Virus record (IMG/VR): IMGVR_UViG_3300009610_000033
Coordinates: 1 to 57,368 of that record
Source of the DNA: a virus
Length of the DNA stretch: 57,368 nt
Strand: one strand, 5' to 3'
Shown here: piece by piece, positions 8,498-21,069 of the stretch
How positions within the stretch are numbered: the first letter of the stretch is position 1
Layout: each line of letters starts with the position of its first letter
Program-made: the position numbers and the translations under genes
The notes under the pieces: generated by a model
The model's database searches: none
What the model saw: only the letters and a program-made list of their open reading frames with translations
What the model was told of the DNA's origin: nothing

Positions 8498-8714
8498 TGC
8501 CCACCTCGAACGACAGCGCCTCAATGCGGTCCGCCCAGTGCTGCAGTCCCGCCGGCCGCATCATCACACACCGCGTGCCATCGGACTCGAACACGTCACG
8601 GGTCCGGTCAGCAGCCATCGCCCGCAACTCGTCGGCGATCTCGACCAGCCTCACGGACGGGGGACGGATACGGACGGCGAGGTTACTCGTCTGGGCTGTC
8701 GTCGGCTTCGGCAT
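8490..8714 (-). CDS. Small hypothetical protein
   Basis: 74 residues with a conserved-looking helix VRLVEIADELRAMAADRTRDV and a C-terminal QHWADRIEALS segment. No motif is recognised. It overlaps the ribbon-helix-helix gene upstream by 32 bases and the DUF4326 gene downstream by 8 bases, so it is probably translated as part of the operon. Confidence 0.5.
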   Translation of the reverse strand: MPKPTTAQTSNLAVRIRPPSVRLVEIADELRAMAADRTRDVFESDGTRCVMMRPAGLQHWADRIEALSFEVGNG

Positions 8715-8880
8715 CGGCGGGCTCCTGTTGGTCTGGTAGGAGGATGCCGCGTAGCCGTAGCTGCCGGAGCGCCATTCTGAGCACCGCGGTCGGCGAGATG
8801 CCGAGGTTCCGGACGTAGTGATCGACCGTCGCCTGTTCCTCGTCTGTGAGCCTGATGCTCATCGGTGCGCGCTTCGCCAT
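8683..8880 (-). CDS. Ribbon-helix-helix (CopG-like) regulator
   Basis: 65 residues. PMSIRLTDEEQATVDHYV forms the beta-ribbon and first helix, and NLGISPTAVLRMALRQLRLRG the second, which is the pattern of ribbon-helix-helix DNA-binding dimers; an acidic tail follows. As first gene of the leftward operon it is likely the autoregulator of the promoter 31-59 bases upstream, where inverted GCAGCGCAT/ATGCGCTGC half-sites overlap the -35 region. The start at 8880 follows CCGAGG; an ATG at 8904 is the alternative. Confidence 0.7.
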   Translation of the reverse strand: MAKRAPMSIRLTDEEQATVDHYVRNLGISPTAVLRMALRQLRLRGILLPDQQEPADAEADDSPDE

Positions 8881-8910
8881 CCTCGGGAGTGTAGCGGCAT
8901 TCACGGCGGG

Positions 8911-8939
8911 ATTCTAGCGCGAAGCGCAGCGCATGTCAA
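8911..8939 (-). promoter_or_regulatory. Leftward promoter of the accessory operon
   Basis: On the minus strand TTGACA (8939-8934), a 17-base spacer and TAGAAT (8916-8911) form a near-consensus sigma-70 promoter. The -35 box lies inside the inverted repeat 8926-8947. Confidence 0.85.
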
Positions 8940-8947
8940 TGCGCTGC
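8926..8947. promoter_or_regulatory. Inverted-repeat operator between divergent promoters
   Basis: GCAGCGCAT (8926-8934), a 4-base centre and ATGCGCTGC (8939-8947) form a perfect 9-bp inverted repeat; a third half-site TGCGCTGG lies at 8955-8962. The repeat covers the -35 box of the leftward promoter and abuts that of the rightward one. The adjacent ribbon-helix-helix gene is the natural candidate for the binding protein. Confidence 0.7.
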
Positions 8948-8948
8948 A

Positions 8949-8977
8949 TTGCACTGCGCTGGACGACCGCGTATCAT
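8949..8977 (+). promoter_or_regulatory. Divergent rightward promoter
   Basis: TTGCAC (8949-8954), a 17-base spacer and TATCAT (8972-8977). It would transcribe the 9.0-9.3 kb region, which holds a strong hairpin, a direct repeat and one small possible gene. Its spacer carries one operator half-site. Confidence 0.6.
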
Positions 8978-9001: not shown

Positions 9002-9033
9002 GGGCCGCCGGCAGGGTGCACTGCCGGCGGCCC
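9002..9033. terminator. Perfect 12-bp stem-loop downstream of the divergent promoter
   Basis: GGGCCGCCGGCA (9002-9013) and TGCCGGCGGCCC (9022-9033) pair around an 8-base loop, about 20 bases into the rightward transcript. There is no T-run. It may be an attenuator, the body of a short RNA, or a terminator for leftward transcripts from 9058. Confidence 0.45.
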
Positions 9034-9037
9034 GGTC

Positions 9038-9097
9038 GGGGAGATCACTCGCCGACACCTCCAAATAATAGCACGGGCGTTCTGTGGGGAGATCACT
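9038..9097. repeat. 12-base direct repeat around an SOS-like operator
   Basis: GGGGAGATCACT occurs at 9038-9049 and again at 9086-9097, 48 bases apart, on either side of the GCACGGGCGTTC operator at 9071-9082. It may be a second regulator's binding site. Confidence 0.5.
9065..9082 (-). promoter_or_regulatory. SOS-box-like operator and -10 box, leftward promoter (site 1)
   Basis: Minus strand: GAACGCCCGTGC (9082-9071) is followed immediately by TATTAT (9070-9065). The same operator/-10 arrangement precedes int and the LexA-like gene. No good -35 box is seen. A transcript from here would run as a roughly 180-base leader into the ribbon-helix-helix operon. Confidence 0.6.
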
Positions 9098-9370: not shown

Positions 9371-10705
9371 TTAGGCCGCGTTTACACTGTCGGAATGACC
9401 ATCATCGGTGGCCTCTGACGACGGGTGGCCCGCCTCCAAATCCGCAGGTTGCAGGTTCGAGTCCTGTCCCTCCTGCCACGAAGTTCCCTTTTGGAGAGGG
9501 CCGTCAGCGTCGAAGCTGGCGGCCCTTCGTGTTTCGTACCCTACGCCTACCCTAGTTGACTCTGGCGAGGCCTCCGCGGGGTCGAGTCCGAGGGCCGCGT
9601 CGAGCTTGCCGATCATACTGTCCAGCGCGCCCGGAACCACGTACGCATAGGTCTCCGTGACCCGCAGCTCGCAGTGGCCCATGAGATCCCGGATCACCAC
9701 CAGCGGCACCCCCTGGTCCTGCAGCAGCGCGGCGAAGACGCGACGCAGCGCGTGCCACCGGATGGGCTTCAGGCCGTGGGACTTCAGGATGATCTTGAAG
9801 TTGTTGGTCAACGACGTGCCGTCCCGCATCCCGCCGGTTGGGTTGGCGAAGACGAACTCGCCGCCTTCCCAGGCGTCGCCGGCGAGGATGCGGTCCTCCT
9901 CCATCTGCTGTCGCCGTAGCGCGAGCGCTTGGATGGCGAGGGCAGCGAGCGGGATTGGTCGCTGGCTCTTCGCGGTCTTGGGGCGGCCGAGCACTCGCTT
10001 CCCGTCCCGGACGTCAACCGCGTGCCGCACGTTGACCTGGCCGCGGGCCTCGTCGACGTCCTGCCACCGAAGGCCGAGCTGCTCGCCCTGGCGCATGCCG
10101 GTAGCGATGGCAAACATGATGACCGGCAGATGGCGGCTGTCCTTGAAGGCGTCGAGGATCTGCCGCGCGTCCGCCGGCGTGAGGACCTCGCGCTCGAACA
10201 CCGGTCGCTCGCCCTTGGGCATCTTGGCGAGGGACGCGGCGTTGGTGGGCAGCCCGTAGTCGATCTGGGCCTGCTTAAGCGCGCCGGACAGGGTCGCCCT
10301 GGCGTTGCGGACGGTGGACTCGGAGAGCCCGCGGGAAAGGAGCTTGGCCAACATCCGCGTCACATGGCCGGGCACCAGGTCGACTAGCTTTAGCTTGCCG
10401 ATCGCCGGGTTGATGTAGTCGGTGACGTGCTGCGAGTAGCTCCGGAAGGTGCGCGAGCGCACGGATCCCTTGGCGTGTAGCTCCAGCCAGTCGGTGAGGT
10501 ACTCTCCGACCGTAACGCCGTCCCGCGGCTTGGACATGCCACGCTCGGCGTCGGAGCGGGCTGCCCGGGACTTGGCCATGGCGCCGGACTTGGTGTCGGC
10601 GTAGAAGGAGCACTGCCGGCCGTCGACGACGACCCGTGCCTCCCAGAAGGTCGAGCCATCCTTTCGTGTCCGCTGCCGGATGCTGCCTTCCCCACGTCCT
10701 CGCAT
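9371..10705 (-). CDS. int: Tyrosine integrase
   Basis: 444 residues. It has an N-terminal three-strand arm-binding domain (about 1-60), a SAM-like core-binding domain (65-165) and a catalytic domain (172-365). Catalytic residues are visible: R205 (ATGMRQGEQLGLRW), K246 in TAKSQR, H318 and R321 (HALRR), H344 (GHCELR) and nucleophile Y353 (TETYAYV). It catalyses site-specific integration and excision at the attachment site. The final 35 residues (from QEGQDSNLQPADLEAG) are encoded by the reverse of the tRNA-like att core, so integration will replace the C-terminal tail; the catalytic domain is untouched. An AGGAGGTG site precedes the ATG, and an SOS-like operator/-10 element sits 25-42 bases upstream. 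Confidence 0.93.
   Translation of the reverse strand: MRGRGEGSIRQRTRKDGSTFWEARVVVDGRQCSFYADTKSGAMAKSRAARSDAERGMSKPRDGVTVGEYLTDWLELHAKGSVRSRTFRSYSQHVTDYINPAIGKLKLVDLVPGHVTRMLAKLLSRGLSESTVRNARATLSGALKQAQIDYGLPTNAASLAKMPKGERPVFEREVLTPADARQILDAFKDSRHLPVIMFAIATGMRQGEQLGLRWQDVDEARGQVNVRHAVDVRDGKRVLGRPKTAKSQRPIPLAALAIQALALRRQQMEEDRILAGDAWEGGEFVFANPTGGMRDGTSLTNNFKIILKSHGLKPIRWHALRRVFAALLQDQGVPLVVIRDLMGHCELRVTETYAYVVPGALDSMIGKLDAALGLDPAEASPESTRVGVGYETRRAASFDADGPLQKGTSWQEGQDSNLQPADLEAGHPSSEATDDGHSDSVNAA
9434..9478 (+). other. attP: attP core: 3' half of a tRNA-Trp gene
   Basis: The segment reads as a tRNA 3' half: anticodon loop CTCCAAA (9434-9440, anticodon CCA), stem TCCGC, variable AGGTT, T-arm GCAGG-TTCGAGT-CCTGT (9451-9467), acceptor strand CCCTCCT, G and encoded CCA (9476-9478). 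The 5' side does not complete the anticodon stem, so this is not a whole tRNA. It is the expected identity segment by which a prophage restores the host tRNA gene on integration. It lies within the 3' end of int. Confidence 0.85.
9497..9526 (+). terminator. Hairpin just beyond the tRNA-derived core
   Basis: AGGGCCGTCAGC (9497-9508) pairs with GCTGGCGGCCCT (9515-9526) with one G-T pair and a 6-base loop, then TCGTGTTT. After integration it would lie about 20 bases after the restored tRNA-Trp and could end its transcript. Confidence 0.55.
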
Positions 10706-10729: not shown

Positions 10730-10747
10730 ATTGTAGCACGGGCGTTC
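10730..10747 (-). promoter_or_regulatory. SOS-box-like operator and -10 box of int (site 2)
   Basis: Minus strand: GAACGCCCGTGC (10747-10736) directly followed by TACAAT (10735-10730). The predicted start is about 20 bases upstream of the int ATG. The -35 region is poor. A second GTTCCGAAC palindrome (10744-10752) overlaps the operator. Confidence 0.65.
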
Positions 10748-11057: not shown

Positions 11058-12665
11058 GTGGACAACACCCTCTACTACGGCGACAACCTCGACATCCTCC
11101 GACGGTACATCCCCGACGAGTCCGTCGACCTGGTGTACTTGGATCCCCCGTTCAACTCCAACGCCACGTACAACGTCCTGTTCGGCGACGCCAAGGGCGC
11201 GATGTCGACGGCGCAGATCCAGGCGTTCGACGACACGTGGCACTGGGACCACAGCGCTGCTGAGGCGCTCGACGATGTGCTGCAGTACGGCGGCCGGCCT
11301 GCGGAGGCGATGCGGGCGTTCGAGCTCCTGCTCGGCCATGGGGACATGCTGGCGTACCTGTCGATGATGGCGCCGCGGCTGATCGAGCTGCGGCGGGTGC
11401 TGAAGCCGACGGGTAGCATCTACCTGCACTGCGACACTACGGCAAGCCACTACCTGAAGGTGTTGATGGACGCGGTGTTTGGGCCGGCGCAGTTCCGGAA
11501 TGACATCGTATGGCAGCGGACCGGGGCGCATAACGATGCACGCCGCTTCGGTCGTGTCACCGACACCATCCTGTACTACACCAAGGGTGCCGACTGCACG
11601 TTCCATCCGCAGTACGAGGTGTACGACCCAGCCTACATCGAGAAGCGCTACAGATATCTCGATCCTGACGGCCGTCGCTTTTGGGCGAACACCGCGACGA
11701 GTCCCAACCCGAGGCCGAACATGATGTACGAGTGGAAGGGTCAACCAAGCCCGCCAAATGGTTGGCGCTTTGAGCGTGCCACGATGGAGCGCATGGAACG
11801 GGAGGGCCGACTCTACTACTCTAAGTCGGGCATGGTCTACGTGAAGAACTACCTGGACGAACAGAAGGGGCGCCCAGCGCAGAATCTGTGGACCGACATT
11901 GTGATGTCGAAGTCCGGTGCCGAACGCCTCGGCTACCCCACCCAGAAGCCGCTCGCCCTCCTGGAGCGCATCATTGCCGCCAGCTCCAACGAGGGCGATG
12001 TCGTCCTCGACCCCTTCTGTGGGTGCGGCACCGCCGTGGTCGCCGCGCAGAAGCTCGGCCGGCGGTGGATCGGCATCGACCTCACGCATCTGGCCATCAA
12101 CCTCATGCGCACGCGGATCAAGGACACGTTCGGCGAAGAGGTGAAGTTCAAGGTGGTGGGAGAGCCGACGACGGAGCAGGAAGCGGCAGAGCTCGCCCGC
12201 ACCGACCCGTACCAGTTCCAGTTCTGGGCCCTGGGCTTGGTGGGCGCGCGGCCGGCGGAGCAGAAGAAGGGTGCGGACCAAGGCATTGACGGCCGGCTGT
12301 ACTTCCGCGACGACCCGAAGGCGCCGTCGAAGCAGGTGATCATCAGCGTGAAGGCGGGCAAGCTGCAGGCCGGCTACGTGCGCGACCTGGTCGGGGTGAT
12401 CGCCCGGGAGAAGGCAGCCATCGGCGTGCTGATCTCGATGGGTGAGCCGACCAAGCCCATGCGCGAGGAGATCGCCAGCCACGGGTTCTACGAGAGCCCG
12501 TGGGGCACGCGCCACCCGCGCATGCAGATGCTCACCATCGAGCAGCTCATGGCCGGCAAGCGCATCGACTACCCGGCGAGCGGGCAGCGTAGCGAGACGT
12601 TCCGGCAGGCGCCGCGGGCGTCGGGGGATGCGGGGCGGCAGGGCGAGTTGTTCGGGGAGGAGTAG
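11058..12665 (+). CDS. DNA methyltransferase fused to a nuclease-like domain
   Basis: 535 residues from a GTG start. Residues 1-370 are an amino-methyltransferase of the beta (type III/Mod-like) order: catalytic DPPF at 29-32 and the SAM-binding DPFCGCGT at 318-325, transferring a methyl group to adenine N6 or cytosine N4. Residues about 385-500 carry a restriction-endonuclease-like fold signature: GADQGIDGRLYF, then QVIISVKAGK near 430, reminiscent of Mrr-type PD-(D/E)XK enzymes, but the residue before VK is Ser where Glu or Gln is usual. It could be a one-protein modification-restriction enzyme or a methylase with an inactive recognition module. It lies alone between int and the repressor, the usual place for lysogeny-module cargo. 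Confidence 0.85.
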   Translation: MDNTLYYGDNLDILRRYIPDESVDLVYLDPPFNSNATYNVLFGDAKGAMSTAQIQAFDDTWHWDHSAAEALDDVLQYGGRPAEAMRAFELLLGHGDMLAYLSMMAPRLIELRRVLKPTGSIYLHCDTTASHYLKVLMDAVFGPAQFRNDIVWQRTGAHNDARRFGRVTDTILYYTKGADCTFHPQYEVYDPAYIEKRYRYLDPDGRRFWANTATSPNPRPNMMYEWKGQPSPPNGWRFERATMERMEREGRLYYSKSGMVYVKNYLDEQKGRPAQNLWTDIVMSKSGAERLGYPTQKPLALLERIIAASSNEGDVVLDPFCGCGTAVVAAQKLGRRWIGIDLTHLAINLMRTRIKDTFGEEVKFKVVGEPTTEQEAAELARTDPYQFQFWALGLVGARPAEQKKGADQGIDGRLYFRDDPKAPSKQVIISVKAGKLQAGYVRDLVGVIAREKAAIGVLISMGEPTKPMREEIASHGFYESPWGTRHPRMQMLTIEQLMAGKRIDYPASGQRSETFRQAPRASGDAGRQGELFGEE

Positions 12666-12672
12666 CAGCCCC

Positions 12673-12702
12673 TTGACCTCCACCGAACGCCCGTGCTATC
12701 CT
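12673..12702 (+). promoter_or_regulatory. Promoter and SOS-box-like operator of the LexA-like gene (site 3)
   Basis: TTGACC (12673-12678), an 18-base spacer that ends in GAACGCCCGTGC (12685-12696), and TATCCT (12697-12702). The operator fills the spacer, so bound repressor would block RNA polymerase: autorepression. Confidence 0.75.
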
Positions 12703-12745
12703 CCTGCCCGTAGCCTGACGTAGCCCCATACCCTCAGCGGCCATT

Positions 12746-12784
12746 GAGCCCGGAGCCGACCATTGCGGTCGGCGTGCCGGGCTC
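12746..12784 (+). terminator. Leader terminator of the LexA-like gene
   Basis: Outer stem GAGCCCGG (12746-12753)/CCGGGCTC (12777-12784), inner stem GCCGACC (12755-12761)/GGTCGGC (12767-12773), 5-base loop, then TTTT. It is a textbook intrinsic terminator lying between the promoter and the gene, so read-through or antitermination must set expression. Confidence 0.75.
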
Positions 12785-12808
12785 TTTTCGTTTCGCCTGG
12801 AGGGACCG

Positions 12809-13096
12809 ATGGAACTGACCGAGCGGCAGCAGACGATCCTCTCCTACGTCCGCGGCTACCTGGCGCAGCACGGCAAGTCGCCGACGATGCGCGAGATCCG
12901 GGACTCGACGGGCACGAGCTCGACGTCCATCGTGGCGTACAACCTCCGGCACCTCGAGCGGCGTGGCCTGCTGCACATGCCCACCGACCGCACCGTCCGC
13001 GGGCTACGCCTGCCTGGCCAGCGGCTGGTGTGGCCCGGCTCCGAGGTCCGCGTCCGCGTTGGCGACCAGGTCTTCGCCGGCGAGCTGGTGGCGTAG
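12809..13096 (+). CDS. LexA-like repressor lacking the peptidase domain
   Basis: 95 residues. Residues 1-66 match the LexA DNA-binding winged helix: LTERQQTILSYVRGYLAQHG, SPTMREIRDSTG, STSIVAYNLRHLERRGLL and RGLRL in order. LexA proper continues for about 130 residues with an S24 self-cleaving domain; here only a 28-residue beta-like tail (GSEVRVRVGDQVFAGELVA) remains, with no Ser-Lys dyad. It should therefore bind SOS-type boxes without being inactivated by RecA. Matching boxes occur at its own promoter, at int, upstream of the leftward operon and at the main rightward promoter. A GGAGGG site precedes the ATG. It may be the lysogeny repressor, induced indirectly or by competition with host LexA; this is inference. 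Confidence 0.85.
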   Translation: MELTERQQTILSYVRGYLAQHGKSPTMREIRDSTGTSSTSIVAYNLRHLERRGLLHMPTDRTVRGLRLPGQRLVWPGSEVRVRVGDQVFAGELVA

Positions 13097-13141
13097 TCGT
13101 GGGCGGACGCGAGTTATCCACAGGCTGTGGACGGCCGGTCC

Positions 13142-13170
13142 TTGACACTAGAACGGACGTTCTATATACT
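13142..13170 (+). promoter_or_regulatory. Main rightward promoter with palindromic SOS-type operator (site 4)
   Basis: TTGACA (13142-13147), 17 bases, TATACT (13165-13170): almost consensus. The spacer holds AGAACGGACGTTCT (13150-13163), a full GAAC-N4-GTTC palindrome of the Gram-positive LexA-box kind. It faces the early genes and looks like the lytic switch promoter. Confidence 0.9.
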
Positions 13171-13254
13171 GGCCCGACCCACATAGACGGCGAAGCGCGG
13201 GGAGGTGGTGCTCCCCGCGCCCCTGCCTCACCAGTTCCGGTCAAGGAGATCCTG

Positions 13255-13428
13255 GTGAAGTGTGTTAATTGTGCGCCCCCTGTTGCCGGGCGTCAACCCC
13301 TCAGTCCCCGTCCTACCGCCTCCGAGCTGCGCGACGCGTACGCCGACGTGCTGCTGCGCGACGAGGCCTGCATGCACGGCGTCTCGTTCATGCGCCGGTG
13401 CGTGGACTGCGACGAGGCAGAGTCGTGA
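13255..13428 (+). CDS. Small zinc-binding-type protein, first early gene
   Basis: 57 residues from a GTG with AAGGAG 7 bases upstream. Cys pairs at the N-terminus (KCVNC) and C-terminus (RRCVDCDE) suggest a small zinc finger; the middle is a short helix. It is the first gene after the operator-controlled rightward promoter. No family recognised. Confidence 0.6.
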   Translation: MKCVNCAPPVAGRQPLSPRPTASELRDAYADVLLRDEACMHGVSFMRRCVDCDEAES

Positions 13429-13571
13429 GCCGGCTCGCGGCCACCCTCCGTCGTCTGCGTGCACGGCTGTGGCGCCGCCGGGTTGGCGTCTGCCTGACCT
13501 GCGGCCGGGCGCTATGTCCAGGGTGCACGTACCGGTGGCCGCCGCGCAGGCCGGACGGATGGGCGCCGTGA
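13425..13571 (+). CDS. Small Arg-rich zinc-finger-like protein
   Basis: 48 residues, starting at a GTGA overlap with the preceding stop. A strongly basic helix (RRLRARLWRRRVG) is followed by CLTCGRALCPGC, a compact CxxC...CxxC zinc site. It could bind nucleic acid. The frame is open further upstream but only in the wrong frame of the previous gene. Confidence 0.5.
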   Translation: MSRLAATLRRLRARLWRRRVGVCLTCGRALCPGCTYRWPPRRPDGWAP

Positions 13572-13585
13572 GCGGGATGGTGGGG

Positions 13586-14569
13586 CTACTTGCCGAGCGT
13601 GGCGGCCTTGATACGCGCTGCCCATGGCTGCGCGTTAGGCGGCAATGGTCCGGCAGCCGGCGCGACGAATCCGGAGCGCGTGCATACGGTGAGCGATACA
13701 TCGTCGATGAACCACCAGCTGTTGTCCAGAGCATCGTTGCTAACAGAGAACACGGCGTGCATGTCCCGGCGGTTTGTGCGCATGTAGCTGGTGACGTCCA
13801 GCTGGCTGTTAGTCCAGTGGCTGACCGCGTTCTGGTTCCAAAAGAACTTGATGAACAGGCTGTCGTCGCCGGTGTCGTTCGGGTCCAGCAACCCATACCC
13901 GTATCCGTCGCTGGTGGCCTCGTGGTCCAGCGTGATCGCGTACCACCAGAACCAGAGGGTGGCCTTCGTCAGATTGGCCGGATTGCCGGTGAACTTGTTG
14001 CTGACCATGACGGATGTCTCGTCTTCGAATGGATGCATTTCACCCATCCACTCGCCCCCATGAGGGGTTACGCCGCTGCTTCCTTTGGTGAAGCGAACGA
14101 TGCCCTCATCGCCAGCCCGGCGCCATGGCCCGTCGGTGTTGGCTTCGAATCCGCCGTCTTGCACGACGTTGGTGCACGTCTCCTGACCGGGGTCCTGTGT
14201 CGGCGTGGGCGTTCGGGTGTCCGTGGGCAGGATCGGTCGTCGTGTCGAGGTTGCGGTAGCCGTCGGCGTGTATGTCGGCTCCGGTGTCGGAGTTGGCGCG
14301 CTGGCCGTCAGAGTGCCAGCGATGGCAGTGCCGACCACATCAGGAGTCGGAGCCAGCGCAGTCCGAGCAGCGAACGTGGCGGCGATGGACGTTGCCACCA
14401 GGTCGGGGGTCTGCGTGGCGCTGGGCTCAGCGGTGATGCGCAGTGGGGATCCGTTGGCCAGCAGCGCTGGCAGGGCGACTTTGTAGGGCAGCTGCTGTGC
14501 GCGGGCAGCCAGGGCGGACCCCAGCGAGACAGCGGCGACGAACGACGCGGCGGCGATGATGCGGCGCAT
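13586..14569 (-). CDS. Exported PT-rich protein with jelly-roll-like C-terminal domain (moron)
   Basis: 327 residues transcribed against its neighbours. Residues 1-25 are a signal peptide (hydrophobic core, AARAQ cleavage region). A Pro/Thr/Ala-rich linker spans about 35-125, and residues 130-300 look like a carbohydrate-binding or beta-sandwich module, beginning NVVQDGGFEA, a common opening of such domains, with many aromatic residues. The product is likely exported by the host and could modify or shield the lysogen surface. It has its own promoter (14628-14600) and an AGGGGGA ribosome site. Composition of the linker resembles Chloroflexota secreted proteins, suggesting acquisition from a host. 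Confidence 0.75.
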   Translation of the reverse strand: MRRIIAAASFVAAVSLGSALAARAQQLPYKVALPALLANGSPLRITAEPSATQTPDLVATSIAATFAARTALAPTPDVVGTAIAGTLTASAPTPTPEPTYTPTATATSTRRPILPTDTRTPTPTQDPGQETCTNVVQDGGFEANTDGPWRRAGDEGIVRFTKGSSGVTPHGGEWMGEMHPFEDETSVMVSNKFTGNPANLTKATLWFWWYAITLDHEATSDGYGYGLLDPNDTGDDSLFIKFFWNQNAVSHWTNSQLDVTSYMRTNRRDMHAVFSVSNDALDNSWWFIDDVSLTVCTRSGFVAPAAGPLPPNAQPWAARIKAATLGK

Positions 14570-14599: not shown

Positions 14600-14628
14600 A
14601 TTGTAACAGCAGCGTTTCCGCCGCGCAA
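14600..14628 (-). promoter_or_regulatory. Promoter of the exported-protein moron
   Basis: Minus strand TTGCGC (14628-14623), 17 bases, TACAAT (14605-14600), about 25 bases before the ATG at 14569. A CGTATACG palindrome lies upstream at 14655-14662, between this gene and the divergent wHTH gene. Confidence 0.65.
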
Positions 14629-14707
14629 TGGAACAACCGTTCGGCTTCCCGACCCGTATACGTATGGCAGTCAGAGGGTGCCCCATGCTCCACGGAGCTT
14701 TTCAGCG

Positions 14708-14713
14708 TACAAT
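14708..14713 (+). promoter_or_regulatory. -10 element for a leaderless wHTH messenger
   Basis: TACAAT lies 7 bases before the ATG at 14721, so the messenger should begin at or within a base or two of the start codon. No convincing -35 box is present, which fits an activator-dependent or weak promoter. Confidence 0.5.
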
Positions 14714-14720
14714 CGAGACA

Positions 14721-14993
14721 ATGCCCCAGTGGGACGCCGCGCAGAAAGCGCGGAGAGACCAGGGCGAGCCGGTGAGAATGGCAATCCTGCGAGAGACGCT
14801 GCGACGCCGCAACGAACGCGAACCGTCGTCGACGTGGGCGGAGCTGGGCTCGGCAGTCGGCGTGGCTGGGGAGACGGCGAAGTATCACTGCCGCGTTCTG
14901 CGTCGCCGGGGCTGGGTAGACTTCCAAGACGGTCGCCCGCGCACTCTCGTGTTGACCGAAGCCGGCGAAGCCGCCATCCAGCCCGAAGGTTAA
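14721..14993 (+). CDS. Winged-helix regulator
   Basis: 90 residues. RMAILRETLRRRNE, TWAELGSAVGVAGETAKYHCRVLRRRGWV and RTLVLTEAGEAA form a winged helix-turn-helix with a C-terminal wing strand, similar in layout to LexA-N or MarR-type regulators. It lacks any effector domain. The ATG at 14721 is chosen for its position after a -10 box; the frame is open to 14628. Divergent to the exported moron and upstream of the early promoter at 15030, so it may control either. Confidence 0.65.
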   Translation: MPQWDAAQKARRDQGEPVRMAILRETLRRRNEREPSSTWAELGSAVGVAGETAKYHCRVLRRRGWVDFQDGRPRTLVLTEAGEAAIQPEG

Positions 14994-15029: not shown

Positions 15030-15058
15030 TTGACAGTTTCTTAGTTGCTGGCTATACT
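15030..15058 (+). promoter_or_regulatory. Early rightward promoter of the replication region
   Basis: TTGACA (15030-15035), 17 bases, TATACT (15053-15058): identical hexamers and spacing to the 13142 promoter but without the GAAC-N4-GTTC operator, so it is not under the same repressor by sequence. Confidence 0.88.
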
Positions 15059-20866: not shown

Positions 20867-21069
20867 CCGTCCTGGAGATCGCCCCCATGGTCCTTGCCCC
20901 GCGGAAGGTCGTCGGCCGCTGCCTGGTGTGCGACTGCCGGCTCGTGACGCCGCGCGAGGCTGTGCGCTGCGAGCCGTGCCAGGAGCGGGGCGCGTGGCCG
21001 CCGTGGATGGCGGCGGAGCTTGAGGCGGTGGTGGCCGAACCGGCGGACGAGGGGAGCGAAGCGCCATGA
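20863..21069 (+). CDS. Small zinc-binding protein
   Basis: 68 residues from a GTG overlapping the previous stop. CLVCDCRLV and VRCEPCQE give four cysteines spaced for one zinc. It directly precedes the replication initiator with a four-base overlap. Confidence 0.5.
   Translation: MTVLEIAPMVLAPRKVVGRCLVCDCRLVTPREAVRCEPCQERGAWPPWMAAELEAVVAEPADEGSEAP

Follow-up and report, generated by a model that had tools for sequence, protein, structure and literature searches.

The nearest described precedent for the locus analyzed here is, by analogy, the temperate phage GIL01. In GIL01, a Bacillus phage, repression is exerted by host LexA together with gp7, and a second phage protein, gp6, is a truncated LexA homologue (PMC4551915, PMC6182141) that turns on promoter P3 from the site GaCACAnnTGTGaC, the SOS boxes of the same promoter being held by host LexA (PMC6182141). 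In a literature search, with most subscription papers outside its range, the only phage found to have been described with a LexA reduced to its DNA-binding domain (DBD-only) was GIL01. For LexA boxes themselves, ChIP in Streptomyces venezuelae has defined the consensus tCGAAC-N4-GNNCGa, in which the right half is loose, and a plasmid box, TCGAACACGTGCTC, that is bound by LexA and shows 15-fold induction with mitomycin C (PMC9380542). Modulation of the host SOS response by mobile elements is also described (PMC11841131). The phage studied here shares with GIL01 a temperate lifestyle, GAAC-type SOS boxes in its promoters and a LexA reduced to the DNA-binding domain. It differs in being tailed and integrating, whereas GIL01 is a non-integrating tectivirus, in carrying boxes also at its integrase gene and at the gene of its own regulator, and in keeping the LexA-type helix.

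The analysis covered one virus record from IMG/VR, the complete 57,368 bases of which are referred to as the window. The record encodes terminase, portal, major head, tape measure, endolysin, integrase and replication genes and belongs to a temperate, tailed, integrating phage. Phage genes lie on both sides of the region holding the integrase and a tRNA half, and the record thus appears to be the genome of a free phage, with attP. The likely attP core spans the 3' half of a tRNA-Trp, from the anticodon-loop CTCCAAA to the CCA end, and overlaps the 3' end of the integrase gene; ARAGORN reported no complete tRNA. Searches with the 95-residue protein described below, the integrase or TerL returned no relatives among the viral contigs searched, and a genome collection yielded only an unrelated full-length LexA. 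A host search with the tRNA-Trp 3' half, TerL, MCP and portal gave no usable match, and the hints as to the host are actinobacterial and weak only.

Table 1. Features of the locus, with positions in the window.
Feature	Position	Strand	Details
Boxed promoter 1	9065-9082	-	Box 9071-9082, GAACGCCCGTGC; extended -10 TGC-TATTAT
Boxed promoter 2	10730-10747	-	Box 10736-10747, GAACGCCCGTGC; extended -10 TGC-TACAAT
Boxed promoter 3	12673-12702	+	TTGACC-18-TATCCT; box 12685-12696, GAACGCCCGTGC; 95-aa gene downstream
Boxed promoter 4	13142-13170	+	TTGACA-17-TATACT; box 13151-13162, GAACGGACGTTC, within spacer
Fifth candidate box	14631-14642		Perfect GAACAACCGTTC; few bases upstream of -35 TTGCGC
Terminator-like hairpin	12746-12784 (to 12795)	+	TTTTCGTTT tail; -31.9 kcal/mol, z -6.6
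LexA-type protein, 95 aa	12809-13096	+	Winged helix (residues 1-70) as sole domain; C-terminal tail without known fold
Second winged-helix protein, 121 aa	14628-14993	+	PF01726 19.5 bits, under the 23.7 cut-off
Tyrosine integrase	9371-10705	-	PF00589 E 2.8e-20; phrog_1; downstream of boxed promoter 2
Likely attP core, tRNA-Trp 3' half	9430-9478	+	Read by eye
Strong unboxed promoter, leftward operon	8911-8939	-	TTGACA-17-TAGAAT
Strong unboxed promoter, early rightward operon	15030-15058	+	TTGACA-17-TATACT

The sequence-only reading had placed a 12-base box at four positions, touching the -10 hexamer directly at three of them and lying two bases away at the fourth, and it had found a LexA winged helix devoid of the S24 self-cleavage domain in the 95-residue protein. 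All of this held up under the present analysis. The box GAACGCCCGTGC occurs exactly three times in the window, against 0.02 copies expected in second-order Markov sequence, and the fourth box is the near-perfect palindrome GAACGGACGTTC (Table 1). When box and -10 were searched together (GAACN4GT[GT]C.{0,2}TA[TC]..T), four sites were observed versus 0.006 expected, each of 500 simulations giving at most one. A PWM scan gave the four boxes at least 16.4 bits and the next-best site 13.3 bits. The hexamers TATTAT, TACAAT and TATCCT abut their boxes, and TATACT is two bases off; this placement supports the prediction that an occupied box would occlude the -10. Beyond a shared 14-mer the sequence is unlike between sites, and hence the sites are not copies of one duplicated segment. 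At three of them, the change of GTTC to GTGC in the right half of the box gives an extended -10 (TGC-TATTAT, TGC-TACAAT, TGC-TATCCT), and the dyad is intact at the fourth promoter, which combines a perfect -35 (TTGACA) with a 17-base spacer. The imperfect right half of three boxes may therefore be explained by the extended -10, on the basis of four sites only.

Boxed promoter 1 is directed at the leftward operon (ORFs from 8904 down to 4549) and is flanked by an exact 12-base direct repeat, GGGGAGATCACT, at 9038-9049 and 9086-9097. The distance from boxed promoter 2 to the integrase start is 25 bases, and two small ORFs (13255-13428 and 13426-13571) lie downstream of boxed promoter 4. The fifth candidate box is weak, as about one perfect GAACN4GTTC is expected in the record. 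It lies at the start of the winged-helix ORF 14628-14993 and next to a leftward promoter (TTGCGC-17-TACAAT, about 14622-14599) for a predicted secreted-protein gene, 13586-14569.

The assignment of the 95-residue protein rests on a PF01726 (LexA_DNA_bind) match over residues 2-58 (E 1.1e-13) and on its predicted fold, for which the best Foldseek matches were the LexA-DNA complex 3jso and the LexA DBD 1lea. Over residues 1-60 the AF2 pLDDT was 76-90, and over residues 72-95 it stayed below 50, the input being a six-sequence alignment that gives fair to good confidence for the winged helix and poor confidence for the last 24 residues. GC contents of 0.70/0.48/0.95 at codon positions 1/2/3 indicate that the ORF is a real gene. 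S24 (PF00717) had no match in six frames of the whole record and only 45 bases separate the stop codon from the next -35, which rules out an S24 domain masked by a sequencing error or frameshift, the case that the sequence-only reading had named against itself. The tail was also considered as a remnant of the LexA cleavage site (VGDQVFAGELVA versus VGRVAAGEPLLA) and rejected, as for most references its similarity to the cleavage region was no better than that of shuffled tails (p 0.04-0.79). The protein resembles bacterial LexA in its winged-helix DNA-binding domain, its GAAC-N4-GTTC-type box and the boxing of its own promoter, on which the earlier proposal of self-regulation still stands as a prediction, and differs from it in having no S24 domain, self-cleavage or recognized dimerization domain. 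The recognition helix, SSTSIVAYNLRHLERRG, belongs to the class S[TS]SSV[AH]xxL (the E. coli type is RSPNAAEEHLKAL). Among the fetched loci, four full-length LexAs of this class (L005, L006, L007, L011) have a GAACN4GTTC 110-250 bp upstream; on the pairing drawn from these four, helix class and operator class agree, and the 95-residue protein is predicted to be compatible with GAAC-N4-GTTC binding.

We put at about even the chances that host LexA acts as the damage-sensitive repressor of this regulon, and that the 95-residue protein, induced by SOS and uncleavable, follows it as a second repressor of the Cro kind on those boxes. That the two proteins bind there, with which sign they act and in what order events unfold is what we infer. 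The four boxes would be SOS-type LexA operators set into the cores of as many phage promoters. A host LexA of the GAAC-N4-GTTC class would sit on the boxes in the lysogen and block the -10; upon DNA damage, LexA self-cleavage would release expression of the integrase, both small rightward ORFs, some of the leftward operon and also the 95-residue protein. Being uncleavable, the latter would then occupy the same boxes and re-repress these promoters together with its own gene. The outcome would be a pulse followed by re-repression, with the 95-residue protein as a damage-blind occupant that perhaps helps repression to re-establish. Lambda Cro is a small repressor consisting of a DNA-binding domain only that has operators in common with CI, a larger repressor inactivated by RecA. 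The likeness lies in the proposed working of the 95-residue protein as a second repressor at shared operators, whereas Cro has another fold and family, the larger repressor would here be the host's, and there is no divergent operator region.

Several observations count against this model, among them the identical N4 of three boxes and the DBD-only loci without a box, both described below. Residue 41 of the helix is Ile where the GAAC-type LexAs compared have Ser or Thr, the LexA dimerization domain is absent from the 95-residue protein, and the terminator-like hairpin separates boxed promoter 3 from the 95-residue ORF. Given the position of the hairpin, the promoter may additionally give rise to a short transcript, or expression of the gene may be attenuated; an Rfam search around the locus found no family. 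Very stable hairpins also lie within about 15-60 bases downstream of two more boxed promoters of the window (9002-9033, z -4.1; 13195-13220, z -2.0) and likewise of the boxed promoter in an unrelated phage, L038 (13470-13560, z -3.5).

The boxes might instead serve host LexA alone, with the 95-residue protein recognizing a different site and possibly activating from it, as GIL01 gp6 does from GaCACAnnTGTGaC beside LexA-held boxes (PMC6182141). We regard this as rather unlikely. Reading of the boxes by host LexA is part of the preferred model as well, and boxed promoters are widespread in phages. With the pattern TTGACA-N2-6-GAACN4GTTC-N0-3-TATANT, a box inside the sigma-70 spacer was found in at least 120 viral contigs of IMG/VR, an order of magnitude above the roughly 5-10 expected by chance under uniform base composition. 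Of 81 promoters among the matches listed, 65 have a spacer of exactly 17 bases, which is what real promoters would show. No LexA-DBD or S24 ORF was detected in 76 of the 80 fetched loci, with flanks of 1-15 kb, so that some of the 76 phages may carry such a gene further off. The abundance of boxed promoters in phages without a LexA-like gene suggests that the boxes are read mainly by host LexA, which could explain them alone, and makes the sharing of the boxes with host LexA, as the sequence-only reading had suggested, a likely prediction. One case of a box without the protein is L038, which has an identical GAACGCCCGTGC in a TTGACA-18-TACAGT promoter and no PF01726 match in its whole 42.8-kb record. 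It was the one convincing promoter among six matches to the 18-mer GAACGCCCGTGCTAYNNT, the others being chance-like or beyond judgement; the idea that this phage is a close relative of the one studied was rejected on comparison. Since the right half of the ChIP consensus is loose, a GAAC-class host LexA like that of Streptomyces could read the window boxes unchanged, with the proviso that this consensus is the Streptomyces one and may not be that of the host. What speaks against a separate site for the 95-residue protein is that the gp6 core, CACANNTGTG, has 0 matches in the window, that the LexA-type helix motif is kept, and that no second repeated dyad is seen across the boxed promoters. Because the gp6 core is absent and the helix retained, we prefer a role as repressor at the boxes to one as activator.

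A second alternative takes the 95-residue protein as the phage's own immunity repressor, equivalent to CI, which would keep all four promoters closed in the lysogen, with host LexA at most a competitor. In its favor, six-frame searches revealed neither S24 nor HTH_3 above cut-off and no other CI-like repressor is evident, the promoters of the 95-residue gene and of the integrase are both boxed, and the spacer is identical in three boxes, suggesting one cognate regulator. The N4 is GCCC in all three GAACGCCCGTGC boxes, which also have the longer dyad GAACGNNCGTKC in common; this exceeds what a generic LexA box needs and would fit a regulator specific to the phage as the only protein reading the boxes. 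The promoter layout speaks against it. A strong unboxed promoter serves the leftward operon, and another serves the early rightward operon, which from 15151 onward encodes a recombination directionality factor, an excisionase-like HTH protein and replication functions; the four boxes hence do not amount to the whole lysogeny switch that the sequence-only reading had seen in them. Boxed promoters 3 and 4 point in the same direction, and there is no lambda-like divergent pair over shared operators. That reading had assigned the boxes to the leftward operon, the integrase, the repressor itself and the main rightward promoter; boxed promoters do precede the first three units and rightward ORFs, but the promoter at 13151 serves only the two small ORFs, after which its transcript would meet the convergent gene 13586-14569. 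Furthermore, a cleavage-proof repressor leaves induction without explanation, boxed promoters exist in phages devoid of such a protein, and the immunity regulator could be the ribbon-helix-helix (8683), winged-helix (14628) or HTH_17 (17971) protein. The first of these is encoded by a ribbon-helix-helix-like gene (8683-8904) adjoining inverted repeats at 8927-8961, which overlap the unboxed leftward promoter and are probably a separate autoregulated operator, and the second by the 121-residue ORF that adjoins the unboxed early promoter on its upstream side. A role of the uncleavable protein as main immunity repressor, as first proposed, is therefore unlikely.

Repression by the 95-residue protein at boxes shared with host LexA gains from the recurrence of such genes elsewhere. 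DBD-only LexA-like genes of 54-88 residues are common on Streptomyces plasmids, and in all eight intact operons the box runs into the -10 (8 sites, 0.0 expected), a descriptive count rather than an independent test, because the motif (GAAC-N4-[GA][ACT]TC) was defined on those loci; five further plasmid loci have no intact operon front. The plasmid genes (L013-L018, L020, L021, L029) match the 95-residue gene in domain content, in a near-identical helix (SSTSSVAYQL) and in a GAAC-N4-GNTC box that abuts the -10 of the encoding operon. They differ in being the second gene, after an 80-aa ORF, of a short-leader operon with one box and no role in integration. One of these operons, L014, is preceded by TCGAACACGTGCTC, the box known from the S. 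venezuelae ChIP. An alignment-based scan returned four loci. Four other phages combine DBD-only LexA genes with SOS boxes. In L043 (4862-5156), TTGACACTGTGGAACATATGTTCTATAAT directly precedes an 83-aa DBD-only gene that is followed by terminase genes, and the packaging genes are apparently under LexA control; in L071, a boxed promoter precedes an operon of two genes, the last of which encodes a DBD-only protein of 89 aa; in phage Wrath (L010), CGAACAAGTGTTTG overlaps the -35 of an 82-aa gene; and in Klebsiella phage Kp4865-4 (L012), the E. coli-type box CTGTTTATTTATACAG precedes a dinI-like gene that lies two genes ahead of the DBD-only gene. No GAAC-type box was found at the DBD-only loci L004, L009, L026, L027 and L028. 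The boxed arrangement is thus recurrent, not universal. In L028 (1691-1981), the DBD-only LexA of a phage with no box nearby ends in a CxxC zinc-ribbon-like tail (HRCGTCGAHL).

This recurrence under SOS boxes, on plasmids and phages alike, could also be taken to mean that the 95-residue protein, produced once damage has occurred, acts as an anti-SOS factor that mainly re-covers host LexA boxes and mutes host SOS genes, the phage boxes chiefly timing its expression. The operator class is the same as that of host SOS boxes, and mobile elements are known to modulate the host SOS response (PMC11841131), but host targets of the 95-residue protein are conjecture only, and we consider this very unlikely. 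That the repeats reflect promoter similarity or chance and carry no regulatory meaning is strongly disfavored, for although three sites could in principle derive from one promoter core, their flanks are unrelated, box and -10 coincide far above the expectation of 0.006, the fourth site differs from them as a near-perfect dyad and the same architecture recurs elsewhere.

More tentatively, and with a chance that we would place somewhat short of even, the 95-residue protein may represent a recurrent class of SOS-induced, uncleavable DBD-only LexA paralogues on phages and plasmids, each a Cro to the host's LexA that would re-cover SOS boxes (its own, the integrase's, possibly the host's) and that here would govern a four-promoter regulon. 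The class appears undescribed so far, a novelty limited by the range of the literature search. Discussion of phages that directly exploit host LexA boxes usually centers on a small number of model cases, such as GIL01. In the present data, at least 120 viral contigs have a box inside a sigma-70 spacer, and truncated LexA genes sit repeatedly under boxes in unrelated mobile elements. If boxes are indeed re-covered after damage, mobile elements would carry a brake on the SOS response that includes integrase expression.

Two further observations concern the surroundings of the 95-residue gene. Upstream of boxed promoter 3, an adenine methyltransferase (11058-12665) with a C-terminal Mrr/NA-iREase-like domain shows 43-47% identity to Microbacterium and Rhizobiales plasmid proteins. 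An exact DnaA box, TTATCCACA, followed by an inverted CTGTGGA (13114-13132), sits in the 45 bases that separate the 95-residue gene from boxed promoter 4; this is the sole exact DnaA box in the record, and the replication protein encoded at 21066 has a DnaA_N-like domain.
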